From Lineus longissimus (taxonomy: Eukaryota; Nemertea; Pilidiophora; Heteronemertea; Lineidae), in assembly GCF_910592395.1 (NCBI RefSeq), contig NC_088308.1, positions 23,513,501-23,577,500 on the forward strand: 64,000 bases of DNA, given 5' to 3'. Below are positions 19,601 through 42,332 of this stretch, in pieces; position 1 is the stretch's first letter; the number at the start of each line of letters is the position of its first letter. The translations under genes and the position numbers were made by a program. Below the pieces are notes generated by a model. That model searched no databases and had not been told where the DNA came from. It was given only the letters and a program-made list of their open reading frames with translations.

Positions 19601-20539
19601 ATAAACAACAGTGAAAGGGTTGAGGAGATTACTGAAGTAATAGCTTCGAAATTTGAATATTGAGCAATCATTCGAAAAGTATTCTCAAATATTTTCATGC
19701 AAAAATTCACCCTGGTCAAGTTGACATATCTCTTCATAGTCGCTCAATTCAGCAGCATTCAGGACGATCTTCCTTGCTCCCTTGTTGTTAACATTCAAAA
19801 CAATATTGTCATCATTTATTTCATCCACAATTTCCTGAAGTATATCACTATCACTCGAAGACATATCAGAACTATCTAAAAGAGTCAAATCTATCAATTC
19901 TTCCTTGGCTTTTGTCCTCTTTTTCTTGTCAGAAACGGGCAGAGAGATACCACCAACGAAATGTTTTTCAACAACTACATCAGTATCGGAAGTGATGTCA
20001 CTTGATAGTGTTATAACCTCTGGCATTTGCTTAGTTGTACTTGATTTGACAGATCTTTCAGACCAGGGAGGAGACATCAAATCATCACTGCTGATCATAA
20101 GAAAGTCTTCAATCTTGGGGCCAGATGTCTTTTTCTTACTGAATTTTCTTTCAGATGTGAGGTTAATAACTTCAGTTTCCTTTGATTCTGGTGCAGGTGT
20201 ACTTGTAGCTCTAGGCTCCAGCACATGTGTCTCTAATTTCACAGTATATTCATTAGAAACTACTGGAGTTGACACAGCTTTCTTTCCAAGGAGCTTGGGT
20301 GATTCATTTCTGATGATTTCACCATTTTTCTCCTTTGCGTTTTCGACAGTGAAAGACGTGGCTTGTTCCTCCACTTCTCCAACAGTCTCATGATGAATTT
20401 GGCTGTACAAGGCCACTTCCATCTCCCTGTGGTACTCGGAACTATCTGAATCCAGATCATCCAATGGATCATCATCAGGATTTCCTCTGGCGATGTCATC
20501 ACCATAGTCCCACCCTTGACTTGAGAAACTTCCAAACAT
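16611..20539 (-). CDS. ZCCHC7: Zinc finger CCHC domain-containing protein 7 (TRAMP-like RNA-binding subunit)
   Basis: Seven coding exons, all phases consistent, 682 residues: 19711-20539 (ATG), 19170-19306, 18713-18886, 18534-18569, 17892-17981, 17432-17543, 16611-17281. The acidic N-terminus starts MFGSF and contains YSQIHHE, as in vertebrate ZCCHC7 (MFGGY, YSQIHYA). Five CX2CX4HX4C knuckles follow: CNNCKERGHLSRDC, CLLCGIQGHMAREC, CYNCSQTGHSSRDC, CYRCGGWGHVRAEC, CFNCSQEGHFGHEC. The last two are each cut by an intron just before their final E-C. DLWRQYHST matches EIWRQYHLT of the human protein. The tail is long, Lys/Arg/Gly-rich and disordered. Known: ZCCHC7 is the Air1/Air2 orthologue, working with MTR4 and PAPD5 in nuclear RNA surveillance. 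Confidence 0.95.
17058..17213 (-). repeat. 78-bp in-frame tandem duplication in the ZCCHC7 tail
   Basis: Two adjacent, nearly identical 78-bp units (17058-17135 and 17136-17213) each encode 26 residues containing ISEQTKRWLSAE(E/D)NSKKT and KKGKSMKK. The near identity at DNA level points to a recent duplication. It lengthens the basic C-terminal tail without breaking the frame. Confidence 0.88.
17591..17742. mobile_element. Candidate MITE (13-bp terminal inverted repeats)
   Basis: A 152-bp segment in a ZCCHC7 intron begins ATGAAGGGGACTT and ends with its exact reverse complement, AAGTCCCCTTCAT. The interior is non-coding. Size and perfect terminal inverted repeats fit a non-autonomous DNA transposon. 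No clear target-site duplication was found, so the family is unassigned. Confidence 0.55.
18085..18290 (+). mobile_element. Candidate tRNA-derived SINE
   Basis: In a ZCCHC7 intron. A tRNA-like head with an A-box-like CTGAGGTGGATAAAAC, an anticodon-stem-like CTCAACTACGAGTC and a perfect B box GGTTCAAGTCC is followed by ~130 nt of unrelated body containing ATGGGTAAATGGGTAC. The acceptor stem is not conserved and no CCA-compatible 3' stem pairs with the 5' end, so this is a SINE-like relic and not a tRNA gene. Confidence 0.5.
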
Positions 20540-20883
20540 TTCTCTGAAGTTGAGTCTGAAGTGGTAAAAAGAGGAGTCAAAATCTTGACAAAAAAGAATG
20601 TCGGCATCTGCAGCTTATCGGTACTAATTTACCAGCAATAGGTTAATTAACAACAGAACGGCTTCAACTTTTTTGTGAATACCTTACAAAAACCTCTGAT
20701 GAAACAATTCAATTAGAATACGGCAATGCGGAAACAGAATATTTCAGCATTTTTTGGGGGTTGTCAGGAGATGCCCCCTATTGGGCAAATATGTTCGTCA
20801 ACAACGTGTGAATGTAACACTTACATTAATTTGCCAATAATTTAAGAAAGAAATAGCCTAGCAAAATTTCAGAGCTATAGTTT
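20540..20883. promoter_or_regulatory. ZCCHC7 upstream region
   Basis: 344 bp between the ZCCHC7 start codon and the first GC-hairpin repeat. AT-rich, with no recognised motif or reading frame. The ZCCHC7 promoter and any 5' UTR are expected here or inside the repeat array. Confidence 0.35.
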
Positions 20884-21954
20884 AATATGTAAAGTCAAGG
20901 ACTTAGTGAGCCCCCCTTTAGGTCGGGGGAGCTCCCCCGAACCCCCCTACGAGCATATGTTAAGTGCAAGCTCTAACAACTACAGCTGTTACAATGGGGG
21001 GACACCCCCCAAACCCCCCTCCGTCGACATAGGTTTTTACCAGTGCGTTGGGGGGAAGCTCCCCCCAAACCCCCCCGGTGGACAGTCAACTAGCCCTTCT
21101 GTGTCATACTGCTGGAGGGGGGGTGCGATGGGACCATCCATATAGTTCCTTCCGACACATTTTTGTTTTGGTAATGTAATACATTTTGATTGTCCTTATT
21201 CACGGGAATCGGGCATTTCCAGTGATATACGACACAAATGGGTTGTCCTTATGCATTCACGATGGAAACGCATTTTAAAATAGATGTTACGTCCTGTTAA
21301 TGGGCACGTCATCATCGCGTACATTTGGGAAAAACTCCCTAACGAGACCGGAGCAGACAGCTGAAAGTAGTTTATTTTTTGGCCGCTAGGGTGCAGAATG
21401 TACGCCGCTCGCGCCGCTCACCCGAATTTTTCACGCAACTATAGCTGAATAGAGCTAGTTCTAGTTTGTGATTCATTTTGATACTTCAGATTTGGGCAGT
21501 AGACCAATATAACTTAGTCGTCAGTGTGGTTTTAAGCAGGGAAAACGTATTTGTTTTTCTTAAAGTGCCTTTTTTGGACGGGTGTGTGCGATTGTTTTTA
21601 TGTCACGTGACCTCGACCATGTAGACACAAAATTGATATAAAACCACCTTTTCTGTCATTATTTATGACGGATATTTCTCTAATGAAAATATCAATATAA
21701 TTGGCCAATTTCTTAGGCATATGTAGCGAATTCCCATGAAGATTTAAATTAGATGTTCTCGTAACCTGTTACAACTGGTCTGATTTATAATTCAGCGCTA
21801 CAACTGGTCTGATTTATTTATTCAGCGCCATTTTGAAAAACCAAAAAAAATTGTTTGTTGGATATACAATACTTACTCTCTTTATTTCACTTCATTTACA
21901 TTATATACTCCCGCACACACGTGTATCTTAAGAGCCCCTCCTAAAGGGGGTCTT
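20884..21954. repeat. GC-hairpin repeat unit 1
   Basis: 1,071 bp. Three GC hairpins lie within the first 200 bp, followed by an AT-rich body. Near the 3' end is an internal direct repeat of TACAACTGGTCTGATTTAT (about 21770 and 21800). The terminal AAAGGGGGTC differs slightly from AAGGGGGGCT in unit 3. Confidence 0.88.
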
Positions 21955-23036
21955 AATATGTAAAGTCAAGGACTTAGTGAGCCCCCCTTTAGGTCGGGGG
22001 AGCTCCCCCGAACCCCCCTACGAGCATATGTTAAGTGCAAGCTCTAACAACTACAGCTGTTACAATGGGGGGACACCCCCCAAACCCCCCTCCGTCGACA
22101 TAGGTTTTTACCAGTGCGTTGGGGGGAAGCTCCCCCCAAACCCCCCCGGTGGACAGTCAACTAGCCCTTCTGTGTCATACTGCTGGAGGGGGGGGGGGGG
22201 GTGCGATGAGACCATCCATATAGTTCCTTCCGACACAGTTTTGTTTTGGTAATGTAATACATTGTGATTGTCCTTATTCACGGGAATCGGGCGTTTCCAG
22301 TGGTATACGACACTTAAATGGATTGTCCTCATGCATTCACTTTGGAAACGCATTTTAAAATAGATGTTACGTCCTGTTAATGGGGCACGTCATCATCGCG
22401 GGAAAACTGGGAAAAACTCCCTAACGAGACCAGAGCAGACGGCTGAAAGTAGTTTACTTATTGGCCGCTAGGGTGCAGAATGTCACTCACCCGAATTTTT
22501 CACGCAACTTTTGCTAAATAGAGCTAGTTCTAGTTTGTTATTCATTTTGATACTTCAGATTTGGGCAGTAGACCAATATAACTTAGTCGTCAGTGTGGTT
22601 TTAAGCAGGAAAAACGTATTTGTTATTCTTAAAGTGCTTTTTTTGGACGGGTGTGTGCGATTGTTTTGTTTATGTCACGTGACCTCGACCATGTCGACAC
22701 AAAATTGAAATAAACCACCCTTTTCTGTCATTATTTAGGACGGATATTTCTCTAATAAAAATATTAATATAATTGGCCAATTTCTTAGGCATATGTAGCG
22801 AATTCCCATGAAGATTTAAATTAGATGTTCTCGTAACCTGTTACAACTGGTCTGATTTATAATTCAGCGCTACAACTGGTCTGATTTATTTATTCAGCGC
22901 CATTTTGAAAAACCAAAAAAAATTGTTTGTTGGATATACAATAATTACTCTCTTTATTTCACTTCATTTACATTATATACTCCCGCACACACGTGTATCT
23001 TAAGAGCCCCTCCTAAGAGGGGGGCTTATTAGTCAT
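21955..23036. repeat. GC-hairpin repeat unit 2
   Basis: 1,082 bp and nearly identical to unit 1, including the internal TACAACTGGTCTGATTTAT direct repeat. It differs by an uninterrupted G14 tract at about 22188-22201 where units 1 and 3 have shorter runs, a likely slippage site for polymerases and sequencers. Confidence 0.88.
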
Positions 23037-24118
23037 AATATGTAAAGTCAAGGACTTAGTGAGCCCCCCTTTAGGTCGGGGGAGCTCCCCCGAACCCCCC
23101 TACGAGCATATGTTAAGTGCAAGCTCTAACAACTACAGCTGTTACAATGGGGGGGACACCCCCCAAACCCCCCTCCGTCGACATAGGTTTTTACCAGTGC
23201 GTTGGGGGGAAGCTCCCCCAAACCCCCCCCCCCCCCCCCGGTGGACAGTCAACTAGCCCTTCTGTGTCATACTGCTGGAGGGGGGGGTGCGATGGGACCA
23301 TCCATATAGTTCCTTCCGACACATTTTTGTTTTGGTAATGTAATACATTGTGATTGTCCTTATTCACGGGAATCGGGCGTTTCCAGTGATATACGACACA
23401 AATAGGTTGTCCTCATGCATTCACTTTGGAAACGCATTTTAAAATAGATGTTACGTCCTGTTAATGGGGCACGTCATCATCGCGTACATTTGGGAAAAAC
23501 TCCCTAACGAGACCGGAGCAGACGGCTGAAAGTAGTTTATTTATTGGCCGCTAGGGTACAGAATGTCGCTCACCCGAATTTTTCACGCAACTTTTGCTAA
23601 ATAGAGCTAGTTCTAGTTTGTGATTCATTTTGATACTTCAGATTTGGGCAGAAGACCAATATAACTTAGTCGTCAGTGTGGTTTTAAGCTGGAAAAACGT
23701 ATTTGTTTTTCTTAAAGTGCCTTTTTGGACGGGTGTGTGCGATTGTTTTGTTTTTATGTCACGTGACCTCGATCATGTCGACACAAAATTGAAATAAACC
23801 ACCCTTTTCTGTCATTATTTAGGACGGATATTTCTCTAATAAAAATATTAATATAATTGGCCAATTTCTTAGGCATATGATGTAGCGAATTCCCATGAAG
23901 ATTTAAATTAATTTAAATTAATTTCAATCAATGGGATAGCAACCACCACCGGAAGATCGCGGAGAAATCGGTAAACTCAACGGAGTTAATTCAGAAAAAT
24001 ACCAAAAAAAATTGTTTGTAGGATATACAATATTTACTCTCTTTATTTCTCATCAAATCAGTATATACTCCCACACACACGTGTATCTTAAGAGCCCCTC
24101 CTAAAGGGGGGCTTATTA
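23037..24118. repeat. GC-hairpin repeat unit 3, chimeric 3' half
   Basis: The first ~850 bp match units 1 and 2, with a C18-like tract near 23224-23240. From about 23900 to 24000 the sequence is replaced: a TTTAAATTAATTTAAATTAA run, then a segment absent from the other units. The common end (CACACGTGTATCTTAAGAGCCCC) then resumes. This suggests gene conversion with, or insertion from, another family member. Confidence 0.85.
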
Positions 24119-24398: not shown

Positions 24399-27300
24399 AT
24401 GGCGACGAGTGGGTGTATGCAGTTCGGACTTCGCCGATTCATTCAACAAAATTCACTATGTTCACTCCGGAAACAAAGTGAGTATTTATGTGGTCGTTTC
24501 GTATTCATATTCAACTTTCTAATGCACCAATTATAAATTCGGTTTGCATTACTAATTTCTTGCAGGCAGTGAATAAAAGTTGAGCAAAATGTAAATATTC
24601 TAGTTCTGCTTGTCATCCCTACGTGGCACTGCACTATGTTGTGTATGTGTATGATCCATGAAATGCAAAATGTATTTTTTAGTAGCAGTAGTGGATGTAT
24701 GCTTATTGCTATTTGCTTTTCATGCAATTTTTGTTTAGTGAAAAGATTGAACCGTTGAATTGGAGTGACGGAGGCATCGTGGTAGTCTAGATTAGATAAG
24801 AAAGGAATCACGTTGACTCGGTTGAGTTACGTCATAGCCTAGACCTTTTCGATGCAGACGAACGAGGCCGAAGGCCCAAACAAAACAATTTTGTACCATC
24901 GGAACACATCGGAAAAACAGAAGGCCAAAGCAGACTTTGGGCAATGCCATAAAGCAATTGTGACTCCTTTGAAACGCATGATTGGTCAGCGCACCCACAA
25001 ACTTCTCAAAATCGTCCATTGGCACTGCCTCAATATAGGGACATAGTGTTTCAGCTAAAGCAGAATAGAAGAAGGCCGCAGCGCCCTGCCCTCGCCCTTT
25101 TTTCTAAATGAAAACACCCTGCTTTTTTTTAGTCTGGTTTTATTCTTTCTTCAGTTCGGTGTGTAACTGGACAGGCCGCCAGGAAACATTATGGTGTGGA
25201 TGAGCCAGAAGGGCCTGTAATGAAAACAGCCCTACCTGGACCAAAATCAAAGGAACTATTGAGAGAACTTGACAACATACAGGTAAATAGTAAAATTCAA
25301 ATTATCTAAATGTTGCAAAGCTTTCTGATTTCTTAACCCAAGTAGAAAAAACTGTACCGAGTATCTCACAATAATAGGTTCTAAAGATTTGCTTCCTTTA
25401 CTTTCAGCATTGCTCAAGTGTGCAGTTTTTTGTCGACTACTCAAAATGTCTGGGCAACTATATCGTGGATATGGATGGCAATACTATTCTTGATCTGTTC
25501 ACACAGATATCATCTATACCTCTTGGTAAGTTCTTTCTTGAATTTTAATCATCACTGAATATTCCATAGAAAGTCAATCCATTTAAAATTGTTGTGAAAA
25601 AGACAAGAATTGACTCCTGTTTAAGTCTTTTAATCGGTACTCCCAGTTGCTGGAATTGTTTGTGGCGCGTTTCAATAACAATTGACCAAAAGGATAGTAC
25701 ACTGATAATCTAAAATATTATTAAAACAATTAAGTATTAAAAGCCTCCGTGAAAAAGTAGGCACATTATGTAAAATTTTCTTTTTTAAAACACAGTTAAA
25801 TCACTCAATTTCTTACAATGCCTACTTGTGCCTATTCTCAGGGTGAGGCTATCAGATTTATTTCATGAACCCATTAATTACTGATAGTAAAAGTTCATCA
25901 TATGAGTCTCCTTCATTTGAGATAACTTGAGATACGTAGTGTCTAATCTTCTTTAAAATAAGTGTCAACCTCCTTCATTGAAGTTAAAATTATACAACAT
26001 ACTTATAAATTGTGTGTCAGTGTTAGGTCTGCTGGAGGAATTTGAGTAGGCTGAACCTAGTTTGGCATATTACCAGATAAAAACTGATCACTGACACACA
26101 TCTAGAAGTAGAGAGAATCTAAAATTATCTCGGGTGGAGGAGGTGACAAACTTTGGTGACATTTCCTACTTATGTCAACTGGTTGTTTTTCTTTTTGACT
26201 CCTATAAATCTTGCCTTGAGATGACAATAACAAACTCCTTGAGCTGGTTTCTTGGGTGTCTCGATTGGCATTTGTCTAGCTATCCTAGTTAGTGTTATTG
26301 CAATATTTAAAAAAGCTACTTTCATCTGACCTTTGAACTCTTGCGCCTTTTTTTTGGCTAATCTGTTGTGCTTTAAAAAGTTCAATCAGCTTTTAAAAAT
26401 GTGTTGTCCTTTGTCATTTATACTGTAAATGCCTGATCTTTTCTTTCCATTAAAACCCACTGTTTTTCCCATCCATAAAATATCTTGATCGTGAGAATAT
26501 CAAAGATACAAATCAGGGGTCTGAGTATAACTAAAGCATTACAGAAAAACCAAACAATGTTAGTCGCTGCGACTTGCAATGGAACCATGAGAACATGACT
26601 AAAATCGCTTATTTGTACGATGCTTGCTGAACTACGGTTAACATGTCATGGAGTAAATCAGTCTTACTGGATAATGAGTTAATATGTGGCATTGGACATT
26701 AAACCTTGATAATTGTCTATGTTATCATATCGAATTTGAATATGGGTGTCCTATAGGTCTGGTGACCTTGAGTTGATGTCTGAAAATCTTGCTGGCACTG
26801 GTATGACTTATCATGAGCTTTATAGATGTTTTTCTTTTTAAAGGCTTTAATCCTATTTTCTGTTAATCAGAGGATAATCGCGTGACCTGGCAGGTTATGC
26901 CATAAACATGTAACATGATGTGACATATATTTATTGCACGAAAATGACCTGCAAGACTTGTTAAAATGTATATTGAAGGGAAATAAAATGAAGCTCAGTC
27001 AGAATGCTCAAAGATGAAGTTATAAAGTCAGATTAGCTAGGCAATAATGTGCTTCCATGGGCGGAGTGAGTTACCATCTTCTGCCAATGACAACATACAT
27101 AAACACATGAAATATGTAAAATTTTGAAGGTTATGATTATCATTCTCTTGCCTTGCAGGGTACAACCATCCGAGCATGATAAAAGCTATGCAAGATCCTG
27201 CTAATGTGGTAAGTATGCCCAGCTCTCTCCCAGACTCAAGTGGTCTGTCCTCTTCAAAGAAAATCAATGCTGATTTAGTTTAGTGGGAGCCCCATTCAGC

Positions 27301-30300
27301 ATGTCATAATCCGGTATCAATTCATCACCGACAGAGACATGAATCTAAGTGCATTTGCCAATTATTCATCTGCCTCTTTCCTTATTAATATTATTTGCTT
27401 TGGTTTCCGATTACTTTCTAAGATCATCAAATGCTCCTGCCTGTTTGTGTAGCCAAGAAGCCCAGTTCTCTGTTTGCAATCTTTATACTGAGAAGATTTG
27501 GCCATAAGGATGGCTCATGTAAAATTCATTACTTCCCCTTGGATCTGTTACGAAACTTCATCAGCTCACCAACAGTAACGATATTGTTACCAAAAGACTT
27601 GGAGCGTATGACGCCAACTGGTGTGAAATGGCTGTTCTGAAACTAAAATGTTCCTTCGTGATAAACATATAGGCCTAGAATATAAAATACAGTTTACTAT
27701 TAGGTTGGCCTGTGGCTGTGTATGTATTCATGTAAAAATGTAAGGGCACTATATAAGTACATATGTGTAAGCCGACGTAACATAAATTCTTAACCATAAA
27801 CGTTAAAGCATAGGCCTGTTCATAGTTCTATTGGTTTATCAGCTAAATGTGATGAAAACTGAGGGACATACATGTAGTTCTAAAAAGTTGCTCTTGTAAA
27901 ATTACAGAACATAATCTTCTATGTTGGTTAAGAAAGGGTCTTGATTCAAGTGTAAAATCAGGAAAATGTTGATGGGAATGGCCCCTAATTTTAAGCTTGG
28001 TATCAGAAGTAATGATATGGCTTTAGTCTGGTATTGCTAAGAAAGATGCTAATAAATAATTTGTCCACTGCATCACCATAGATCAAAATATCAGAATTCA
28101 TCTTATTGCATCCATATCATGGATCCGTTGCTCATGTGATCGGTGTTATCCAATTTTTTCAACATCTGTGTATTTCAGTATGACCTGGTTAACCGACCTG
28201 CACTTCAGGTGTTTCCCCCTGGTAACTGGCCAGCGCGAATGGAGAACTCTCTTTTGGAGGTATGCATATCTCAACCATATCTTTGCTAAAACATTTTAAC
28301 TTCGCAGTAAAATATGTATCTTGTATAAAAGTTTGTCGCAGTTAACTGAATCATCAGGGTGTCTCGTGACAGTACCTTACCAATCATATAATTCTGATTT
28401 GTTTTTCAGATTGCCCCACCTGGCCTGAATCATGTACATACTCTGATGTGTGGTGCTTGCTCAAATGAACATGGATTCAAGGCCGTCTTCATGAGGCATA
28501 TGGTAAGATACGAAAACATTAAGGGTGTCCTATATGTCTGTTGGTATTTAATTATTAATGGCCTACCAAAAATCAGTCCAAGCTTTCTCTGAACCATTTC
28601 AATACATTGGTTTTCCCTTGCTGGCTTAAGCCAATTTAACCCTACAAATCTTGTTTCATGGAGAGTTAATGTTATCAAGCATGCCCTGGTGACAATTTGG
28701 GTTAGTCGTTCGGTTTGTGTATCTTGAGAATTTTTCCTGCCCGCTGAAGAAAATGCTAAAATCTATTATTCTTTTCAGCGGAAATTACGAGGTGGTGCAC
28801 CCCCAACGAAAGAAGATTTAGAAACGTGCCTCCTCAACCTTCCTCCTGGATGTCCTCCTCTCACCATTATGGGCTTCAAGAATGCCTTCCATGGGCGAAC
28901 TATGGGTAAGGAGCTGAGTGGTTGTTTGAATCAATGAAAGATCACTTTGTCTACTCTTAATAATACTATACTCCGCAGACTCAGTGACGTATTTCTACTC
29001 TCATTGATGGCCTGAAAATACTAAACAACTGATTTGAAAGAATTGAATTATTTTCAACTGCTATTAACTTTGGGCTAACTGGGGTAGTTGATATTGGATT
29101 TCTTTGTCAAATCATTGGTCTATTGTAGAAAAATGCAAAGAAAAATAGGTTTTATTGTTGAGACTGAAATTACAAATCGAATTAAAAAAAAAGCAGTATG
29201 TTTTGTTGCTGTGTTGTCTCACCTGAGATATGTTAGAGCAGTAGCCTTTAATTGTCTGCCACCTTGGAGTGTTATCTACTGGCGAGAACTGTTGGCCATC
29301 TGGCTTGCCTGGTCAAAGGTGTCAAAAGCGCAGTTATTTTGTCAGCACATGTAGATCATCGACCTGCATAAAGAGATTTATTTAGGTGCATTGATTGGGA
29401 ACACATGTGGTGTACTTACATGTAACAGTTAGATACATGGCAGATACATAAGCGGTTGCTGAAGACAAGCTATAGATAAGCTTACTATAGTGGCAAGGCC
29501 TGCTTTACAAATTCTCATGTTTTGTAATTTTATATTGGAAATCGATGTAGTCTTAACTGTAATAGATAAGTGAAGTCACTTTATTATCACTATCAGTTGT
29601 AAAAGTCAAAATCACTGTTTGTTATCTTAATTCTGCCACAGGGTGCTTGTGCGTTACCCACTCAAAATATACCTACAAGTTGGACATACCTCAGCTTGAC
29701 TGGCCAATGGCTAACTTTCCAAAGTATCGTTACCCACTTGATACCCCTGAAAATTCTTCACGCAACGAAACAGAAGATAGTAATTGTCTATCTGAGGTAA
29801 TGAGTTGCAGAGTCTTTTTAAACCTCTTCTTCTGTGTATGAACTGTGTGTTAGACTGTTTGAGAATGCCTTCTCCAAAACATTTTGTACCATTGGTGAAA
29901 CACTGCAGACCAATAGTGAGATACTGGTTTGTTTTTCTCTCCGTCTTCGATTTGAAACATTTTGTTGATTTTGAAAAATATTCTTAAACTCAAAATGTGG
30001 CATTTGAAGAAGGCTTGGGCTGGTACGCCTATGATGAAACTAGATGCACCTTTCTTACCTGTGGTTTAGATTGCACAACAGTTTTCCCATTATCTGAACT
30101 ATTTATTTTTTTGGGGTGGATGTTTTGTCAAGATGCTCAAGTGTGGCGTGTGTAGCGTAGTTTTCTCTTCATCAATAAATGTTCAATCTTAATTGGAAGC
30201 AAACGCTGCCGCAAAGAACCTATTTTTTATCACATTTCTCATCAAATGTGTTACTTTTTCATAGGTGTCTTAAATGTCACTCACACAAAGGCCAGTCATA

Positions 30301-33300
30301 AAGTAGACTTTCCGCAGATGGACTGGCCGTGTGCATCATTCCCAGAAATCAAATATCCATTGGAAAGTCATGTTGTTGAAAATCAGAAAGAGGAACAACG
30401 CTGCTTGGATGAGGTATTTTGGATACAGGGATTTGTTTTTATTACATGTACCTTCTAAGGTGTTCTCCACTCTATTTTCTTTTGGTCAGGTAGTAAGCTC
30501 TGATTTAATTTCTTCTTTAACTGCATGGTCCGATGGTGTATATTTTGGTCTGGTTACAATAGTTTTTTAATAGAAAAAACCATTTCAGCTCCAAAGCGAG
30601 TTTTTTTTGTCTGATGAAAAAATTTGAATTTCCAATAGAGTAAATCAAATTTTACCAACAGCCAGTTGTCTAAATACATGTAGCAACTTGCTGAAATTGA
30701 TCAAGAAATATTTCCCTGTCCAGGTAGTGCAGAAGAATAGGATGACAGGGAGGGGCTAACATGCGGTGAGCTTGGGGCGGGGGCTTCCGCCAAAAAAGTA
30801 CTCTTATACCAATAACATATGCTTTTATCACCTTAGCTCTGGAGGGGGGGGGCTTCCGTTAAAAAAGTGCTCTTGTCACAAATCATAGTTCGAGTTCCTC
30901 CACGAAATGGCCAACAAGAGAAGTAAAGCAAATTCTGCAATTTGTGAATTTTCATTTACCTGTACCACAAGAAAATACAATGAAAATGAACATTGTAGGC
31001 TTTTAACTCTAAGGTTTGGGGTTTAACAAGTTGCTCTACTAATTATACGAGAATGCCATCTTAAAATCATAACCCTAAGGCTATCGTTTTAACCAGTTAG
31101 TGTGACACACTAGCTTCCCTGCATCTAAACTTCTTCAGAGCTTTTTTTCTTGACGTGTTTGTGTGTTGGTAGGTGCCTTGAATGTAACACGTGCAAAGGC
31201 CAACCAGAAACTTGACATACCACAGCTGGACTGGCCCTGTGCATCGTTTCCTGAGCTCAAATACCCGTTGGAGAGGTATGGAGTTGAAAATGCACAGGAG
31301 GAACAGCGTTGCTTGCATGAGGTACATTTTGTGGCTGTGTGCATGCTTAGATCAGATCTTGCTCTCTTTATCTTATTGTCTTGTGCGTTAGATGTTAGTT
31401 GCTTGTGCTCAACCAACACTTCCCTAGCACCAGGGGTGGATGCAAGGTGCATTCGCTCCCTCTTTTACCTGGCAGATAAAAGCTTTTTTTAAATGGTCAG
31501 TTGACCACAATTGCGCCCATCATGTCTACAACTACTTTTGATTGTTAAAACAATAAAGCTTAAAAAATTGTGAAAATTTATTTTTTGGGGGATATTTTAC
31601 AATTGGCCAAAACAAATAGCTGCTTCATAAATGTCTTTCGAAAATATGGCAAAAAGGACGCGTTTGGATGTGGTTTTCAGCAGTATCTCTACTTCTATAA
31701 ACCTTCGTTCGGCTGGATCAACATTCCAAAGAAAAAAGTGTGTCCTCGGAATGATCCTGGGCTTCTGTTAGGCTTCAGTGCATGAGATTGCACTTTTGCA
31801 CTGTATACATCATGCACTGCTCTTATACCCTTGGTCTTTTCTGCTTCCCTTCATAATTATAGGTGCTCTGAATGCGAGTACGGTCAAACCCACGCATAAA
31901 CTTTATTTCCCTGCCGACGATTGGCCGGTTGCACCATTCCCCAAAGTTATGTATCCATATGAAAAATATGCTGAGCATAATGCTAGGCAGGAGAGAATGT
32001 GCTTGAGTGAGGTATTGTGAAACTCATTAAACCCAATTTCTTGCCGCATCCTACCTCATCTGAAACAGGACTGGCTCCTCTAAGGAAGGCTCCTCTTCAT
32101 AACCCACTTCATAAAATCAACATCCAATTACCCCCTTTTAATCAATGAGGAGGTCTGTCTCTGAAAGATAAGGTTTGTACTGTCATTGCAATAACTTATT
32201 TTGAAGCTTTTGAACACACTTCTTCACAGGACAGGAGTGTGTTGCCCAAGTGGTAAAGTGAATAAGTTTTGCTAAACATGTGACGATTAAGGACAACAAA
32301 AGGTGTGACATGTTGACACATAACTTTTACAGAGGAAAATACATCCAAAACTTCTGCAATTAAATTTTCAAGCTATTGGGAAGATTTTCACATCATTCTG
32401 AGGCTAATAAAGTGCAGATACAAAACACTCATTTTCGGTTTTCTGGTCATTGCAACTTATTTTGCTATCCTGGATCAGTAGTTTTTGTCAACCAACTCTT
32501 TTGTGTATCTGTAGGTGCTATGAATGCAAGCCACTTGCCCAACAAACCAGAAACCAAACTATTTTTCCCTGCCACTGACTGGCCCATGGGACCATTTCCC
32601 CAAGTCAGATACCCATATGATAAGTATGCTGCTGAAAATGCAGAAGAGGAGAAACGGTGCTTGCATGAGGTATGGTGAGATAGTGTCCTGAATAACCTGT
32701 CCCCGTATCCAATGACACCAGCCTGTCCTGTGCAGTTGTGTATATTTGATAGCCGATCTATCAACCAAACTAGCCTTGTAAGAAGGCTTTTTTTCTCAAG
32801 ATTTCGTTTGGTCAGAATTAGAAACCGATCTATTAATGAAAATGCTTCTTGTGGCTCAATTTCCTTACTCTAAAAAGTTTCCATTTGACGGACAGATCTT
32901 CTCAAACCTCACTTTAATCCAAAGATAACAGGTTTTTTTACACCTTTGTCCATTTGTTCAAAACAAGTGTATAAAGCCCATTATAATCAGCGCCAAGTTA
33001 GTAAACTTACTTGCTTTGAACAACTGGGCCCGAATCTCACCAATATGAACAAAATGGTTCCCACTTTGCCATACCTGCAACAACCTAAATATGCCACCTT
33101 CCTTATCCAGCTGTATCACAGATTCAAATCTGTATGTAAACATTGTATGTATTCACTAATGCCTTGAGCCATCGTTTCAATATCATCTCGAGGCCAGCAC
33201 TGTCGAACCTTTACACAAACTCTTATTTCTCAACTAATTTGGCTGGTTGTGAAAAATATTCGGGGCAAAGTTATGAAATCATCTTTATGAATAGTCTGTC

Positions 33301-35821
33301 TTTAGCTTCTTGTAATCTTTATAACCAATTTGCTTTAATCTTTATAACCAATTTGCTTTATTAATAAGCCAACCTCTTCTTCCCATCACATGTGCTTGGT
33401 GGCAATATATTTGGTGATTCTTGGAGTTAACCCGAATTTTCCCCCAATAAAATGGTGCAGGGTTGTCCTTTGTCCTCGGATAACATCATGTCAGAACCTT
33501 TCCACAATCTTTCCATCCAATAAGTACTAATAGAACTTTTTCTGACAAACCCTTGGGGGTTAATGGTATCTAGTTACAGGTCATTATGTCAATTTCACTA
33601 ATATATCTTGAGTGTGCATTTTTATCTAATCATTGTATAAATCTATAAAGATTTATCTGATATTATCAATAATAATATCTTTGTTGATAAAAGTTCAAGT
33701 ATGACTGAAGATAGGTTTGTGTTTGATAAAGATAGTTGAATATTGTGCAACGAGTAGTTGATCGAGTAGTTACGAAAAGATCTTTAAGCATTCAATATCA
33801 TACTTCTTTAATATCATGTAAGAAGTCTGTTGCCAGATTTAAACACTTTATGATATGCAACTGATTCATGCACTTAGAACTTATCAAAATGAGACATGTT
33901 AAGCCTATCAAAGGCTATGTGTTTTTAAATATTTCTAACTTGTGTTGACAGATTCGTGCCCTAGTCGAGGAGTATAATGGCAGAGGTACCCCCTGTGTCG
34001 GCATCATCACTGAGCCAATCCAAGCCGAGGGAGGTGACAACTATGCTTCTCCCGACTTCTTCCAAAAACTTCAAAAGATATGTAAAGAGGTATGTAGAAA
34101 TAAGACTGTAAATGTTTGCTTACCAACAAGAGTCAATCTGGTACCTAGGACATGTAAGCATCATATGCATTGATGAGGTAAATTACCCACGCCATCCAGT
34201 TCCTTTGTAGTGCACGCACAGATCAGTTGATGCATGATGAAATTAGTTTGCTATCCACATGATGTTATACATTATGTCCATAAAAGCAACAGTTTTATTT
34301 GAATGATATTCATCTATAAAACATTGTATTTACTATCTTTGTTCTGTCCAATATTTCAGTTTGACATTGCATTCATCGTTGACGAAGTCCAGACTGGCCT
34401 GGGTGCTACCGGTAAGATGTGGGCTCATGAACACTGGGACCTCCCTGAACCACCAGATATTGTGAGCTTCAGTAAGAAGGCCATCACGGGAGGTTTCTTC
34501 TTTAAAGAGGAATACAAGGCAACCGACGTAAGTAGTCCTTGATATTGTGACACGGTAAAGTTAGTGTGGTCTCAAGGTCTGCTCGCGCCGCAATGGGTTA
34601 TCAGGCTGGAGCTTATCCGGGATTTTACAGTATAAAGGGACTAGAAGTATCACTCCCCCTGGATAGCATGCTGATCCGCAGGTCAACTTGCCAGGCAAGC
34701 CTAATATAAGTACCTATTAATACTTCTTGGTGGGAGCTGGACTGTGTGGGTGTGTGTGGCTTGTTCTCCTGCGCACCTTTTCCTCATCAATCTCCTTCCT
34801 ATTTTCAGGGTCACAGGATCTTCAACACTTGGATGGGCGACCCGCACAAGATCATTCTGCTTGAAGCTGTTGTAAAGGAAATCAAGTCAGAAAACCTGCT
34901 TGCACAAGTCAATGAAACTGGCAATTTCCTTCTTGCTGGGCTCAAGAAACTTCAGGTATGAATACTGTACCATAAATCCAATACACTGTAAAGAATGCTC
35001 TATGATGTCATCACAAATGCATTGGCCCATTTGGGAAGCCCTATGTGGTGTTAAATGAGTTTTCCATATGATATAAATGATATATCTTAGAGCTATTTTG
35101 TCTCACATTTAAATCGTCTATCATTTGTCACTTGTTTTGCTAACTTGCTACCGCAATCGCATGTGAACCAGAGAGTGTAATACCTTGCTCTGCCTATATC
35201 TTCAAGCCTTTCGTTGCCTCTGCAGGACACTTACCCTGACCGTCTTGCTAATGCTCGTGGACTTGGAACCTTCTGTAGCATTGATACTCATGATGCACAG
35301 ATGAGGGACAAGATGATACATTCGCTCAAACAGAGAGGTAATGGAAACGATCTGTTGTTATCATCCATTCCTACACTTGACTTCAGTCAGTGAAATACTA
35401 AGTTGCGAGTTGAGCGTCAACATAACATTATAAGCTTGATAAACAATATTAGGCAAATGTAAGGTAGGAAGAAACCGAAGACCCCGGTCAAAGAGAGTCG
35501 CCCTGTCTTATCACATGACCGACCAGATATCAAAGCAAGTACCTCGGGGGTGACAGGCACTGATGTTTCTGCTGTGCCACTCCGAAAGTCTATACTAGTG
35601 ACTAATGCTAAATAATAAAAGATACAGGCTTAACTTGTAATTCATCGTTGAAATAAAAATTTTGTAGAAATCTGCATCAAATCCAATGTGTTTGTCTTTC
35701 AGGTATCAACATTGGAGGTTGTGGAGTGAGCAGTCTACGTCTGCGGCCAAGTCTGACTGCCCAGCCTCACCACTGTGAAATCTTCTTAGATGCTCTCAAT
35801 GAAATCATGAAAGAATTATAA
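24399..35821 (+). CDS. ABAT: 4-aminobutyrate aminotransferase (GABA transaminase), with five alternative exons
   Basis: Exons: 24399-24477, 25155-25282, 25408-25525, 27159-27208, 28179-28259, 28410-28502, 28779-28905, one of five copies (29642-29796, 30265-30413, 31173-31321, 31863-32011, 32515-32669), 33952-34089, 34360-34527, 34809-34955, 35226-35337, 35703-35821. With a 149-nt copy the protein has 502 residues (human ABAT 500). An Arg-rich N-terminus fits mitochondrial import. Seen: CGACSNE (the iron-sulphur Cys pair), FHGRTMG (substrate-binding Arg), [17 protein letters not shown] (PLP Asp), FSKK (PLP Lys), SLRLRPSL (second substrate Arg). Known: the enzyme is a PLP-dependent class-III aminotransferase in the mitochondrial matrix that turns GABA and 2-oxoglutarate into succinic semialdehyde and glutamate. 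All catalytic residues lie in constant exons. Confidence 0.96.
29642..29796 (+). CDS. ABAT: ABAT alternative exon 8a
   Basis: 155 nt, entered after 1 nt of a codon and leaving in phase 0; borders ccacag/gg and gag/gtaatg. It encodes [20 protein letters not shown], then [14 protein letters not shown] and a tail ending NCLSE. Of the five copies its start is the most like vertebrate ABAT ([20 protein letters not shown]), so it may be the ancestral version. Its tail is two residues longer than those of 8b-8d and has NSS and NET triplets. Confidence 0.9.
30265..30413 (+). CDS. ABAT: ABAT alternative exon 8b
   Basis: 149 nt, same phases as 8a; borders catag/gt and gag/gtattt. It encodes [34 protein letters not shown] and [12 protein letters not shown]; this tail resembles vertebrate ENQQEEARCLEE. 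Closest to 8c. Confidence 0.9.
30774..30876. repeat. Local G-rich direct repeat in an ABAT intron
   Basis: Two diverged ~33-bp copies (30774-30806 and 30843-30876) of GGGGGCTTCCG, then C/T-rich and AAAAAAGT(A/G)CTCTT, lie between alternative exons 8b and 8c. Non-coding. It may be a simple repeat or an RNA-structure element; nothing distinguishes these. Confidence 0.55.
31173..31321 (+). CDS. ABAT: ABAT alternative exon 8c
   Basis: 149 nt; borders ggtag/gt and gag/gtacat, with a weak polypyrimidine tract at the acceptor. It encodes [34 protein letters not shown] and [12 protein letters not shown]. It shares [14 protein letters not shown] with 8b, suggesting these two are the youngest pair. 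Confidence 0.9.
31863..32011 (+). CDS. ABAT: ABAT alternative exon 8d
   Basis: 149 nt; borders ttatag/gt and gag/gtattg. It encodes [34 protein letters not shown] and [12 protein letters not shown]. With 8e it forms a second subgroup (FPAxDWPxxPFPxVxYPY). Confidence 0.9.
32515..32669 (+). CDS. ABAT: ABAT alternative exon 8e
   Basis: 155 nt; borders ctgtag/gt and gag/gtatgg. It encodes [36 protein letters not shown] and [12 protein letters not shown]. Two extra residues (LPNKPET region) relative to 8d explain the extra 6 nt. It is followed by a 1.28-kb intron before constant exon 33952-34089. Confidence 0.9.
33314..33359. repeat. 23-bp exact tandem duplication in an ABAT intron
   Basis: AATCTTTATAACCAATTTGC plus CTTT-type flank occurs twice back to back in the intron between exon 8e and exon 33952-34089. 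Probably replication slippage. Confidence 0.7.
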
Positions 35822-36607: not shown

Positions 36608-39600
36608 ATACGTATAGACTTCTATAATATACTCCTTCCTTCTGTGTATCCAGAATAAAAAAAAGATAAATTTATATATGAAAACAAATTGTTCCTTTTT
36701 GCTGTATGATGACTTGATTTTAAAACTGGCCAATGCAGCTGCAATCGGGAATTGACATCCCAAAAGGCATCACTGATTTTTCTTAGGGTATGAATACATG
36801 TAATCATCCTATAGTCCAAATGTGATGAACAATCAAAATTTCAATTCGTCCTGTTATGATAGTGCTAGGCTCTTGGATCATCAATCTTCTATTTTGGTGC
36901 TACGTAGTCCAGAATCCTCCATCTACGGGAAGGTGGACTCCGTGTATCATGCTGGCCTGGTCGCTGAGTAAGAATAATGTGGCATTGGCAACATCAACTT
37001 CCTCTGCAATTAAGACAACAACAATTTTACAGAAGGATCACCTTTAACTTGGTAGGAGTGATACATTGGGTGATATGAATAAAGGCTAGCAAATGCTTTT
37101 ACTTCAATTTTGTACAGAAAGGCCAAGTATAAATGTACATGGAGTTTTAGATAAAAGCATTTACTAGTCTTTATTCATATCACCCAATATCAACAGGTAA
37201 CTTTATAGCAGACAGTTGGCATAATAAGACAAATGGGCCTTTTAGGCTGCGTATCCATAGTCTATTCCATTGGTCAAGTTGTGGACTAGAGGCGTTGTTT
37301 GCATTTTACAAGGGAACCGTCTATGGATGAGGAGCCGAAGGGAGTGGAATATATGAGGAGGGTATGACTCGCTCAGTGAAGGGCGATATGCTGTCATACA
37401 GGAATTCTGTTGGCTGAACTGACATAGAAGTGGCCCATCTCTATTCCATTGATGATTTAACCAACTGCCAACTGCTAAAAGGGAGTGATCATCTAGAGTC
37501 CTCGAGCTTCTCCACTTAGTTCTGGCAATTAGCTGCCTTTGAGCCAAACTAGCTATGTTGTTGAGTGGTTCCCGTACCTGCAAATCTCCCAAGTGGTATT
37601 CTGTCAAGCATTGGTTGACTTCTGGCAGGGTCACTCCAGTTCTGTCTCCCCATAGCTGTCATGACGACCGTGGGATGAACAGTATTCACTCGAATCTTGT
37701 GTGGTCCAAGTTCTAAAGCCATGACTCTTGAGATAGCATCCACAGCACCTTTTGTTCCGCAATATAGGATGTGTTCCTTCAGAGCCCTCTCTGATGCTTG
37801 ACTTGACATATTGACTATTGAGCCTCCTTTTCCTGATTCAATCATCCCTTTAGCAACGACCTGGGAGACGCAAATGATCGACTTGACATTGGTATTGTAC
37901 AAGCTGAAATTGAATGAACAGTTTGTTGTTGAATGGAGACAAGATACTGCATGCCTAGAGCTAGCTTTTGGTCGGGGTCACTGGCGGTTTGGGGTGGTAA
38001 AAACTTCCTAGTGCTCTCCATCTAGCTACATGGCCCTCTTCTGTGATCATGTAAAACCATTTTTGGCAAGATGCTCATGTGTTGGCACAATCTCATATTT
38101 TCAAGAAAGGAAGGAAGAAGAGGATTTAAATTGTGACTCGTACGTATCAAAATCCTCTGGTTTGATATCCAAAAGGCTAGCCAAAACAATTATTGCTGCA
38201 TTGTTAACTAAGAAGTCAACTGGTCCTATGGCTTCAATAGCTTTCTTGGTGGCGTTCCAGTCCGAGAGATCTGCCTGGACACCATGAGTGTTGGGGATCT
38301 GCAAGAGATGAACAGCGATGTTCTAAGCTCATCCATCTTTAAAAAATTCTTGTTTTAAAGGACAATTAACAAGGCCAGCTTATTTGTGAAGAATAGCTTA
38401 TAACAGGTATCCTCGCCTTAACCAAATTAACAATTTAGCATTCGTCGTACACAAAAGAATTTACAGTTGAGACATCAATGTTTAGGGTAAATCAAGGTTT
38501 GATGATAAAAGTGATTGCTAACATGCTATACTTGCCTCTTGTTCAACCTTATCCAATTCTTCCTTTGTCCTACTGACAGCCCAGACTTCTGCCCCATTTT
38601 TGGACAATCCTTCTACAATAGCTCGACCAATACCTATAGAATATTGAAAACGGCTATAAATGGGAGCGTTTCATGCAAGGAGAAAATATGTAAAATCTGC
38701 TGCCTCCCTGAAATAGGCGGTGATACATGTAGGACTATTATTCTTAAGTTCTTAACTTCGACTGCAGGATCCTCTTAGAAACTAACCACCTCCCCATGGA
38801 AACCGGCCCCAAAAATTAAATCGTTCTGAGAATGCCTATTTAAAATTTCCCGCAATATCTTAGCCACGCCTCATTCAAATTCATGTCGCCTGCTCGTCTG
38901 CCAATTAGACTGACCTAAAACATTTTAATCAAGGCAGTCAAGGTTGTCATGGTCAATCTCAAACTGGCACAAATAGCGGCCAGCAACAGTTACTCCAACC
39001 GCATTGCCTTGGCGGGCCGCATGGAGTTCTCATGGGCAGATGAAGCGAAGGGGCGTTAGATCCCGGTCCAAAGAAGACAGGCTCCTTGGCTCAGACATCC
39101 TGACGTAACATAATCCGCCTCTCGATGCTCTCAGGATGGGCTCAGACGGGGCGAGCGTTGCTCGTGCTTTTGTCGTCTGCTCGTAGGGAAGTCGGCTGGT
39201 GAAATCGGAGTAGGCTGCTTACCGCGTCCCCCACCAGTCACGATAGCCTTCTTCCCCGAGAAGTCGTATGCCATTTTGGCAGTGTCATTTGTCACCTCCA
39301 CGAGAGACTTCAAATCCGATACTTCCGTCTCGACTGAGATATGGCGTCTAGTCATTGTCATTAACATATACCTGTTTGCTTTTGGCGCGAGATATAAATC
39401 ATGGCACATTTATTATTGCATGATATCCTGAAAGAAATCATGCAGGGGTGTGTGATGACCGGACAAGCGAACATTACATATAGCCTGGTCCACCAAATGT
39501 TACACTCCGGACACAGTGGACCGGCCTCCTCCCTCACTCTATAAGATGACGCAATGGACTGCCCCGTCGGGAGTCCACCAAGTGTACCCGCGTGCATGGG

Positions 39601-39680
39601 GTCAGCACAACATTACACGGTCTAGTTATATTTGCAGTCATCAGAAATAATTGGAAAGAGGACAATTTTCATTTCACTTT
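36608..39680. repeat. Segmental tandem duplication, unit A (holds DCXR copy A)
   Basis: Homology with 39695-42332 extends beyond the gene on both sides. On the left both units share TACTCCTT and AAATTTATATATGAAAACAA near 36680/39720. On the right both share AATTGGAAAGAGGACAATTT near 39650/42305. Promoter and 3' region were therefore copied along with the gene. Unit A is longer because of ~170 bp extra in the intron at about 38780-39130. Confidence 0.85.
36900..39274 (-). CDS. DCXR: L-xylulose reductase-like short-chain dehydrogenase, copy A
   Basis: Five exons, phases consistent: 39223-39274 (ATG), 38536-38633, 38144-38298, 37578-37903, 36900-37003; 244 residues, the human DCXR length. Seen: Rossmann TGGGRGIGRA, AVSRT (NADP-type Arg), VNNAA, NMSSQ (catalytic Ser), YCGTKGA (catalytic Tyr and Lys), [14 protein letters not shown], ending GGFWTT. 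Known: DCXR is a tetrameric NADPH-dependent reductase of L-xylulose and dicarbonyls. The start [10 protein letters not shown] was chosen because the family begins a few residues before the Rossmann strand and copy B keeps the same start; an upstream in-frame ATG exists. The donor of exon 2 is GC (gcaagt). Odd: HPT replaces the NPT that copy B and human DCXR have after RVNTV. Confidence 0.93.
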
Positions 39681-39694
39681 AATATTTCTTTAAT

Positions 39695-42332
39695 AGATTG
39701 TATACTCCTTCTGTATAGATAAATTTATATATGAAAACAAATTCCTTTTTTGTATGATGACTTGATCTTAAAACTGGCCAATGCAGCTGCAATCGGGAAT
39801 TGACATCCAAAGAGGCATCGCTGATTTTTCTTGGGGTATGAATACATGTAATCATCCTATAGTCCAAATGTGGTGAAGAATCAAAGTTTCAATTCTGCAT
39901 GTTACGATAATGACAGGCTCTTGGATCCCCAATCTTCTATTTTGGTGCTACGCAGCCCAGAATCCTCCGTCTACGGGAAGGTGGACTCCGTGTATCATGC
40001 TGGCCTGGTCGCTGAGTAAGAATAATGTGGTATTGGCAACGTCTACTTCCTCTGCAATTAAGAACATTAAGTTAGTTTAAATTTACCGGAAGGATTATCT
40101 ATAACTTAGTAGAAGTTATACATATCAAAAGGTAACTTTATAGCAGACAGTTGACATAATGCGATAAATTGATATGAGGAAGGTTATGATTCAGTCCGTG
40201 AAGGCGGTCATTTCTATTCCATTCAACCAACTGCCAACTGCGAGAAGGGAGTAATCATCTAGAGTCCTCGAGCTTCTCCACTTAGTTCTGGCAATTAGCT
40301 GCCTTTGAGCCAAACTAGCTATGTTGTTGAGTGGTTCCCGTACCTGCAAATCTCCCAAGTGGTATTCTGTCAAGCATTGGTTGACCTCTGGCAGGGTCGC
40401 TCCAGAACTGTCTTCCCAAAGCTGTCATTACAACCGTGGGATTGACAGTATTCACTCGAATCTTGTGTGGTCCAAGTTCTAAAGCCATGACTCTTGAAAT
40501 GGCATCCACAGCACCTTTTGTTCCGCAATATAGGGTGTGTTCCTTCAGAGCCCTCTGTGATGCTTGACTTGACATATTGACTATTGAGCCTCCTTTTCCT
40601 GATTCAATCATGCCTTTAGCAACGACCTGGGAGACGCAAATGATCGACTTGACATTGGTATGGAACAAGCTGAAATTGAATGAACAGTTTGTTGTTGAAT
40701 GGAGACAAGATATTGTATGCCTGGAGCTATAGCTTTTGGTCGGGGTCACTGGCGGTTTGGGGTGGTAAATGCTTCCAAGTGCTCTCCATCTAGCTACATG
40801 GCCCTCTACTGTGATCATGTAAAACCATTTTTGGCAAGATGCTCATGTGTTGGCACAATCTCATATTTCGTCAAGGGAAGCAACTATGCAGAAGATGGGA
40901 AGAAGATGATTTCAATTGTGACTCATACGTATCAAAATCCTCTGGTTTGACATCAACAAAGCTGGCCACAGCACTTGTTGCCGCATTGTTAACTAAGAAG
41001 TCAACTGGTCCTATGGCTTCAATAGCTTTCTTTGTGGCGTTCCAATCCGAGAGATCTGCCTGGACACCATGGGTGTTGGGGATCTGCAAGAGATGAACAG
41101 TGATGTTCTAAGTTCATCCATCTTTAAAAAATTCTTGTTCTTAAAGGACAATACGCTTATTTGTGAAGAATAGCTTGTAACAGGTATCCTCGCCTTAACC
41201 AAATTAACAATTTAGCATTCGTCGTACACAAAAGAATTTACAGTTGAGACATCAATGTTTAGGGTAAATCAAGGTTTGATGATAAAAGTCATTGCTAACA
41301 TGCTGCACTTGCCTCTTGTTCAACCTTATCCAATTCTTCCTTTGTCCTACTGACAGCCCAGACTTCTGCCCCATTTTTCGACAATCCTTCTACAATAGCT
41401 CGACCAATACCTATAGATTGAAAACAGCTATAAAATCTTTAAGGATCAAAGGGTTCTTGACTCCCTTGGCATTTCAATGATGATAGTCTTTCTATGAACG
41501 CGGTATAGCGGTGATATAGCACCTCCATGTAGGCCTATTATTCTTAAGTTCTAAAGTTCGCCGAGATCGCGGGACTCTCTGAGAAACTAAGTTCATGGAG
41601 TATAAATAGCCAATCAAAATTCATGCAAAATATGGCACCCCAGGGGGGCCTCTTCAAAACGACACGCGATACCGGTATTCACAAGGACGACCTGTATTAT
41701 ACGTGGATATAAATAGTCCCGGTCATGCGCAAGGAGGTTGGCTCCGTGGCTCAGACGGAGCGAGGGATCGGCTCGTCCTTTTGGCCAAGTTGGCTGGTGA
41801 AATCGGTGTACTTACCGCGTCCCCCACCGGTCACGATAGCGTTTTTCCCTGAGAAGTTGTATGCCATCTTGGCAGTCTCCTGTCACCTCAACGAGAGACT
41901 TCAAATCCGTTGCTTCCGTTTCGACTCTACTGTGACTGCTTTGTTGTATCTGTGTCAAATGATATGGCATCCAGTTATTGTCATTGTCATTAACATATTC
42001 ATGTTTGCTTTTGGCGCGAGATATAAATCATGGCACGTTTATTGCAAGGTATCCTGAAAGAAATCAGGGGTGGATATTTGCATCCCCGATGTGATGGCCG
42101 GACAAACGAACATTATACAATGTATATAGCCTGGTCCATCACAAGTGTTACACTCCGGACGCAGTGTACCGGCCTCGTCCCTCACCCTAGAATGACGCAA
42201 TGGACTGCCCCGGGAGTCTACAAAGTGTACGTGCGTGCATGGGACCAGTGTGGTGACAAAAAACATTACACGGTCTCGTTGAAATTGCAGCCTTCAGAAA
42301 TAATTGGAAAGAGGACAATTTTCATATTTCAC
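39695..42332. repeat. Segmental tandem duplication, unit B (holds DCXR copy B)
   Basis: Head-to-tail partner of 36608-39680, starting within ~15 bp of its end. Exons and the intron-1 splice flanks are nearly identical between units, while intron lengths differ by indels. The duplication is therefore fairly recent but not new. Confidence 0.85.
39948..41867 (-). CDS. DCXR: L-xylulose reductase-like short-chain dehydrogenase, copy B
   Basis: Exons 41816-41867 (ATG), 41313-41410, 40929-41083, 40344-40669, 39948-40051. They have exactly the same lengths as copy A (52, 98, 155, 326, 104 nt), giving 244 residues ending GGFWAA. All SDR motifs are present (TGGGRGIGRA, VNNAA, MSSQ, YCGTKGA) and the usual VNPTVVM is kept. 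Differences from copy A cluster after VNNAA ([16 protein letters not shown] versus [16 protein letters not shown]), near the substrate side, and at TALGRQFW versus TAMGRQNW. The exon-2 GC donor is shared. Both copies look functional; whether they differ in substrate or expression is unknown. Confidence 0.93.

Follow-up and report, generated by a model that had tools for sequence, protein, structure and literature searches.

How can a gene for a general mitochondrial enzyme hold five versions of one of its exons, and are these versions used one at a time? The question is raised by the gene for 4-aminobutyrate (GABA) transaminase, ABAT, which occupies positions 24399-35821 on the plus strand of a 64,000-nucleotide stretch of chromosome 1 of the bootlace worm Lineus longissimus (NC_088308.1, 23,513,501 to 23,577,500; hereafter the window) and is made up of 12 constant exons and an array of five exon copies. 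An initial annotation, made from the sequence of the window, had read this array as a candidate mutually exclusive splicing cassette, and the analysis reported here supports that reading through the logic of the reading frames, an excess of silent over amino-acid change in all pairs of copies and a public protein that contains copy 3 and bears isoform number four. We hold, with a probability of roughly 0.88, that L. longissimus ABAT harbours a five-exon mutually exclusive cluster from which one copy enters each message, and the gene thus probably makes five versions of its enzyme. The same annotation called the enzyme neuron-relevant, a label that is its own interpretation given that GABA transaminase acts generally in mitochondria.

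The exon array and its reading frames

Judged from its sequence, the gene is the L. longissimus GABA transaminase gene. Exons 2-13 of the window, spliced with copy 3, give a product with 100% identity over the whole length to the public protein P0001, named '4-aminobutyrate aminotransferase, mitochondrial-like isoform X4 [Lineus longissimus]'. The ABAT product is a full-length class-III aminotransferase (335 bits to Pfam Aminotran_3) that aligns to the pig enzyme (GABA-AT, structure 1ohv) with 564 bits and, by this alignment, keeps Phe189, Arg192, Glu270, Lys329 and Cys135/Cys138 (pig numbering, as for all such positions below). Fish ABAT gives 14 matching pieces in the window.

For the detection of the array a set of 119 homologous proteins was used, namely the best 120 of 5441 matches minus the Lineus protein itself. 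A profile of the exchanged segment, built from these homologues with the five copies excluded and run on the 3738 six-frame open segments (at least 10 residues) of the window, gave exactly five matches, which are the five copies (E 2.6e-28 to 2e-17); the next best match had an E of 1.3. Each copy is bordered by AG and GT, is entered in phase 1 and left in phase 0, and contains no in-frame stop. The five intact blocks that the initial annotation had described are thereby confirmed, and its positions for the donor (28905), the five copies and the common acceptor (33952) are right to the base. That the segment is single elsewhere in the family, as had also been claimed, is borne out by all 119 homologues, each of which has one 50-residue segment at this place; copies 1 and 5 reach 52 residues by two-residue insertions at different sites. 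By base composition alone (mononucleotide shuffling), five open frames would be expected with a chance of about 4e-7. The copies are adjacent internal exons of equal frame and similar length that resemble one another (46-75% identity in DNA and 42-70% in protein between pairs), and these are the features by which mutually exclusive exons have been predicted, as set out in the cited part of PMC5740500. The exons of the gene are as follows.

24399..24477, plus strand: exon 1, start codon and presequence-like N-terminal stretch; identical to P0001 residues 1-26
25155..25282, plus strand: constant exon 2; AG/GT borders; in P0001
25408..25525, plus strand: constant exon 3; AG/GT borders; in P0001
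27159..27208, plus strand: constant exon 4; AG/GT borders; in P0001
28179..28259, plus strand: constant exon 5; AG/GT borders; in P0001
28410..28502, plus strand: constant exon 6, containing CGAC (aligned with pig Cys135/Cys138); in P0001
28779..28905, plus strand: constant exon 7, ending in FHGRTM and the first base of a Gly codon (phase 1); pig Phe189 and Arg192
29642..29796, plus strand: copy 1 of the alternative exon, 155 nucleotides (nt) long, acceptor CAG, with Tyr at pig position 206
30265..30413, plus strand: copy 2 of the alternative exon, 149 nt long, acceptor TAG, with His at pig position 206
31173..31321, plus strand: copy 3 of the alternative exon, 149 nt long, acceptor TAG, with Gln at pig position 206; used in isoform X4
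31863..32011, plus strand: copy 4 of the alternative exon, 149 nt long, acceptor TAG, with His at pig position 206 and Tyr at both 209 and 227
32515..32669, plus strand: copy 5 of the alternative exon, 155 nt long, acceptor TAG, with Thr, Phe and Tyr at pig positions 206, 209 and 227 and an insertion of two residues
33952..34089, plus strand: constant exon 9, common acceptor (phase 0), EPIQAEGGD (pig Glu270)
34360..34527, plus strand: constant exon 10, SKK motif (pig Lys329)
34809..34955, plus strand: constant exon 11; in P0001
35226..35337, plus strand: constant exon 12; in P0001
35703..35821, plus strand: constant exon 13 with the stop codon; in P0001

All copy lengths (155, 149, 149, 149 and 155 nt) leave a remainder of two when divided by three, and with entry in phase 1 and exit in phase 0 it follows that only the inclusion of exactly one copy yields a full-length protein. 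With a single copy the frame is regained (475 or 477 residues counted from exon 2), the joining of two to five copies in order gives a premature stop in all 26 combinations, and the skipping of all copies leads to a stop at the ninth codon beyond the junction. In a copy-to-copy join the second copy (2, 3, 4 or 5) has its first base as the start of a codon, regardless of which copy precedes it, and is terminated at its third codon, by TAA in copy 2 (30265-30273) and by TGA in copies 3 (31173-31181), 4 (31863-31871) and 5 (32515-32523). Since several exon junctions lie downstream of these stops, misjoined and skipped messages would be expected to undergo nonsense-mediated decay. The third-codon stop of copies 2-5 could be a selected fail-safe against double inclusion, which we do not claim as an adaptation; it largely follows from an Asn at segment position 4, given that 32 of the 48 synonymous encodings in copies 2-4 and 8 of 8 in copy 5 produce it. 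Asn is found at this position in 3 of the 119 homologues, and the stop may have been inherited.

The place of the segment in the folded enzyme bears on a different account of the array. The cassette corresponds to pig residues 195-244 and begins three residues past Arg192. An AlphaFold2 model of P0001, and hence of the copy-3 protein only, had a mean predicted local distance difference test score (pLDDT) of 89.3, with 89-99 for the ten-residue blocks over the cassette, and superposed on pig 1ohv with a template modelling (TM) score of 0.98 of the target and a root-mean-square deviation of 1.2. In this model the cassette (P0001 226-275) is mostly loop and its end lies inside a helix (262-285). 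For human exclusive exons, a segment that ends inside a secondary-structure element is described in the cited part of PMC5740500 as one that cannot be simply skipped, and by the modelled helix the same would hold for the ABAT cassette. The same source also reports, in the part cited, that similar adjacent human exons are often not exclusively spliced, by which precedent the copies could be ordinary cassette exons, included in variable number to give proteins with repeated segments. With every multi-copy combination and the skip out of frame, with no homologue departing from a single segment, and with the cassette of the model ending within a helix, this is very improbable.

Age and constraint of the copies

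Silent change exceeds amino-acid change in 10 of 10 pairs of copies, with one-sided Fisher p values from 4.2e-3 (pair 2-4) to 3.2e-11 (pair 1-2), the pairs sharing sequences and not constituting independent tests. This excess argues that the copies are not relics. The ratios of amino-acid to silent substitution rates (dN/dS) are themselves unreliable because silent sites are saturated in several pairs. Identity between copies is 63% at first, 68% at second and 42% at third codon positions, and among the six introns that flank or separate the copies there are only short matches, with no long homology. The combination of unrelated introns and conserved amino-acid sites indicates that the copies are old and under constraint at the protein level.

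The lack of long homology between introns likewise speaks against an artefact of assembly. For an assembly error, or the merger of several ABAT genes, as the source of the five blocks we find no point in favour. The assembly was made from 79-fold PacBio coverage and Hi-C and comprises 391 Mb, of which chromosome 1 accounts for 29.45 Mb (PMC8593623, in the part cited). When P0001 was compared with the window, every exon other than the array matched once each; a single extra match near 63.6 kb (26% identity, E 0.47) is taken as chance. The copies are, at their level of DNA identity, too diverged for haplotypes. A genome search with Pfam Aminotran_3 returned 16 exon-level matches in six loci, the window and five others, and the five others (stretches of 9-10 kb) contain at most two weak pieces matching P0001 or fish ABAT. 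On these matches the five are taken as other aminotransferases, not ABAT, and the segment was absent from them (best profile E 0.75). Error or merger is therefore scarcely credible, and it seems to be one gene with five exon versions, not several genes, that carries the variety. A class-III aminotransferase-like locus with an open frame of 533 aa, at G000:C6:18391573-18394233 (in L013), is weakly ABAT-like.

A tree of 54 alignment columns from the 119 homologues and the five copies joined copies 2 and 3 (support 0.88), 4 and 5 (0.96) and 2-5 together (0.72), and placed copy 1 elsewhere, with a hemichordate and two other homologue sequences near copies 2-5. With so few residues the tree can neither date the array nor show that all five copies originated within the nemerteans.

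How many of the old copies are still in use is a separate matter. Only one to three of them could be spliced in, the others being old duplicates that are no longer or rarely included. The substitutions in copies 4 and 5 are in keeping with such a history: Asp209 and Leu227, each kept by 99% of the 119 homologues, are replaced, the former by Tyr in copy 4 and Phe in copy 5 and the latter by Tyr in both. Moreover, the copy-3 protein is the only one directly seen. Against this stand the five open frames, improbable by composition, the intactness of all splice sites, and constraint in every pair, that of copies 4 and 5 included (p 2.7e-4), which argues that constraint persists. Isoform numbers in NCBI practice mark different proteins from one gene, and the name 'isoform X4' hence implies at least four annotated products. 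Partial use of the array is, on balance, improbable, and the five-way exclusive cluster is preferred. The cluster of P0001 at 90% identity has four member sequences, of which the copy-3 member is the one that was read; the other members likely carry other copies. We infer that all five copies are used, that their use is regulated and that their products differ in function.

Selection among the copies

In the mechanism that we propose, the donor at 28905 would be joined to one copy and the donor of that copy to the acceptor at 33952, and copy-to-copy joins and skipped messages would be removed by nonsense-mediated decay. Four ways to enforce exclusive splicing are listed in the cited part of PMC7969005: frame incongruity with decay, U2/U12 incompatibility, RNA structure and branch-point proximity. 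Frame incongruity with decay is, as predicted from the lengths and phases of the copies, the one of these found in the ABAT array. Incompatibility of U2 and U12 sites was not found, all copies having GT-AG borders with GTA donors (the minor-class consensus judged by eye). The choice of copy would probably be set by splicing regulators acting at rather weak sites. Four of the copies have TAG acceptors (copies 2-5, at 30262-30264, 31170-31172, 31860-31862 and 32512-32514), and CAG is found in copy 1 and in all 11 constant acceptors. The donors of the copies are predicted to pair weakly with U1, at -5.7 to -6.7 kcal/mol; among the ten constant donors scored (exon 1 left out), six exceed every copy in strength (-7.2 to -9.7 kcal/mol), and the strongest of all is the donor immediately before the array (28905).

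Several observations weigh against an exclusive cluster of five functional copies. The other four of the ten constant donors, at -5.2 to -6.7 kcal/mol, are as weak as those of the copies, and weak donors are thus not special to the array. The introns between copies measure 468, 759, 541 and 503 nt, and the AG-exclusion zones before copies 2-5 are 46, 30, 74 and 31 nt long, so that there is no sign of distant branch points. RNA pairing of the docking-selector kind was not established in the array's introns by a scan with 40-base windows and shuffles. Of 23 positions kept in at least 80% of the 119 homologues, copies 1, 2 and 3 keep 21, 23 and 21, and copies 4 and 5 keep 17 each, where the lowest homologue keeps 19; the latter two lie outside the range of single-version enzymes and may have gained a new property or, less favourably, come under weaker constraint. 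Differences in other parts of the protein could, in principle, also lie behind the isoform labels. Finally, no second nemertean was seen to have the array: the sole other nemertean recognised by name among the best 120 of 5441 protein matches, Tubulanus polymorphus, bears no isoform number. This species belongs to the class Palaeonemertea and Lineus to Pilidiophora.

No isoform-like pairs differing in the segment alone occurred among the 119 homologues, in a database whose clustering would have merged such pairs. In the same 90%-clustered database, no protein shared three words with the copy-5 segment, and the copy-3 segment found the Lineus protein alone. As the clustering and the demand for exact words miss even known ABAT proteins, these word searches do not exclude other nemerteans.

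The cluster may also be real and the choice within it be made by competing RNA pairings between a docking site and selectors, as in Dscam. The first and last introns of the array were scanned with 40-base windows placed every 10 bases, each window being scored for pairing with the other five introns. The best window of the first intron (29256-29295) had a summed pairing with the five downstream introns that was better than in 148 of 150 local shuffles, the other 2 reaching it. This window is the best of all those in two introns, however, and 2 in 150 is not significant after such a choice; the candidate pairings also have large loops. The best window of the last intron was reached by 26 of 150 local shuffles. 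Whole introns were also shuffled (in steps of 20): the value for the first intron (-155.8) was reached in 0 of 6 shuffles, of which the best came to -149.4, and that for the last intron (-143.5) was passed in 1 of 4 (-152.9). We regard a choice by pairing of this kind as doubtful, and regulators at weak sites are preferred as an explanation of how the exclusive cluster is read.

The surroundings of the gene hold other duplications. Just upstream of ABAT, at 20882-23726, are three tandem copies of a unit of about 1.07-1.09 kb, whose ungapped stretches agree to 96-100% in part and to about 70% elsewhere, where the register is probably interrupted by gaps. A short-chain dehydrogenase gene (Pfam adh_short) is duplicated on the minus strand at 36698-41417, its two copies lying about 2.8 kb apart and being 92-98% alike in parts. 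An open frame on the plus strand at 14823-15596 matches AP-5 complex subunit sigma-1 (172 bits), and on the minus strand at 16600-20600 lie what look by eye like exons for a protein in which CCHC zinc knuckles are repeated.

The substrate pocket and comparison with known systems

The five predicted proteins would be alike in the part encoded by the constant exons and unlike in the 50-52 residues beyond Arg192 that the cassette supplies. The substrate site of GABA-AT is lined by Glu270, Arg192 and Phe189 (PMC12731848, in the part cited), and in the docking results cited from PMC11337686 the contacts are Arg192, Cys135, Glu270, Gly136, His206, Ile72, Lys329 and Phe189, with Lys203 among the contacts of a second docking, to 1OHV. 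In L. longissimus, Phe189, Arg192, Glu270 and Lys329 are encoded by constant exons and are hence common to all five products. Lys203, which lies in the cassette, is kept in 5 of 5 copies and in 116 of 119 homologues. The position of His206 is occupied in copies 1-5 by Tyr, His, Gln, His and Thr, and in the homologues by His (104 of 119) or Gln (7 of 119). Docking contacts hint weakly that position 206 is a residue of the pocket. Since the segment includes this position, the isoforms are likely to be functionally different, most likely in substrate preference, kinetics or stability.

A bolder proposal, which we put forward tentatively and would sooner expect to fail than to hold, is that a single gene supplies five GABA transaminases with different substrate pockets, through position 206, the loop 195-209 and, in copies 4 and 5, the rare changes at 209 and 227, and that splicing tunes the mitochondrial enzyme to different omega-amino acids (for example GABA, beta-alanine and 3-aminoisobutyrate) by tissue or stage. 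Such tuning, if true, would be a splicing-based substitute for a family of enzyme genes.

GABA transaminase sets GABA levels, is a drug target and is in animals usually treated as one enzyme from one gene. Large clusters of exclusive exons are known mostly from receptors, channels and muscle proteins. The array would extend such clusters to a core metabolic enzyme of a little-studied phylum, and a five-way exchange beside the substrate arginine would provide natural variants of the pocket with all else identical, so that the role of the segment becomes directly testable. As the initial annotation had supposed, no such cassette appears to have been described: in the open-access literature we found no report of exclusive or duplicated exons in GABA transaminase or ABAT, nor of this array in Lineus longissimus.

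Among known systems, the closest in architecture are the exclusive exons that arose by tandem duplication in human genes (PMC5740500, PMC9741552), which, as described in the parts cited, are likewise adjacent and homologous, agree in frame and length, often shift the frame on joint inclusion and encode a segment within a folded domain; 71 human clusters of three to ten exons are counted there. The L. longissimus array differs in its setting, as five copies in the metabolic enzyme GABA transaminase of a nemertean. Dscam of arthropods (PMC5740500, PMC6071210) shares with it the picking of one exon from a tandem array, but has up to 53 exons per cluster, encodes a cell-adhesion receptor and has docking and selector sequences described in the cited portions of these papers; for ABAT, with no docking site evident, it becomes a question how one copy among five is selected. 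Metabolic enzymes with exclusive exons are already known. In OGDH, exons 4a/4b (PMC7969005) switch the properties of a mitochondrial metabolic enzyme by the exchange of duplicated exclusive exons, as the array might do, but these are two exons that affect calcium sensing and whose exclusive splicing is, in the cited account, enforced by a short intron with distant branch points, whereas in the array five exons are separated by introns of 468-759 nt, and nothing there points to distant branch points. Ketohexokinase (KHK; PMC9741552), also a metabolic enzyme, resembles ABAT in exchanging a region next to its ligand site; the cited description gives two versions and places a conserved catalytic arginine within the part that is exchanged, against five versions in ABAT with the substrate arginine in a constant exon. 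The host gene of the array and the position of the exchange within it are nevertheless unusual.

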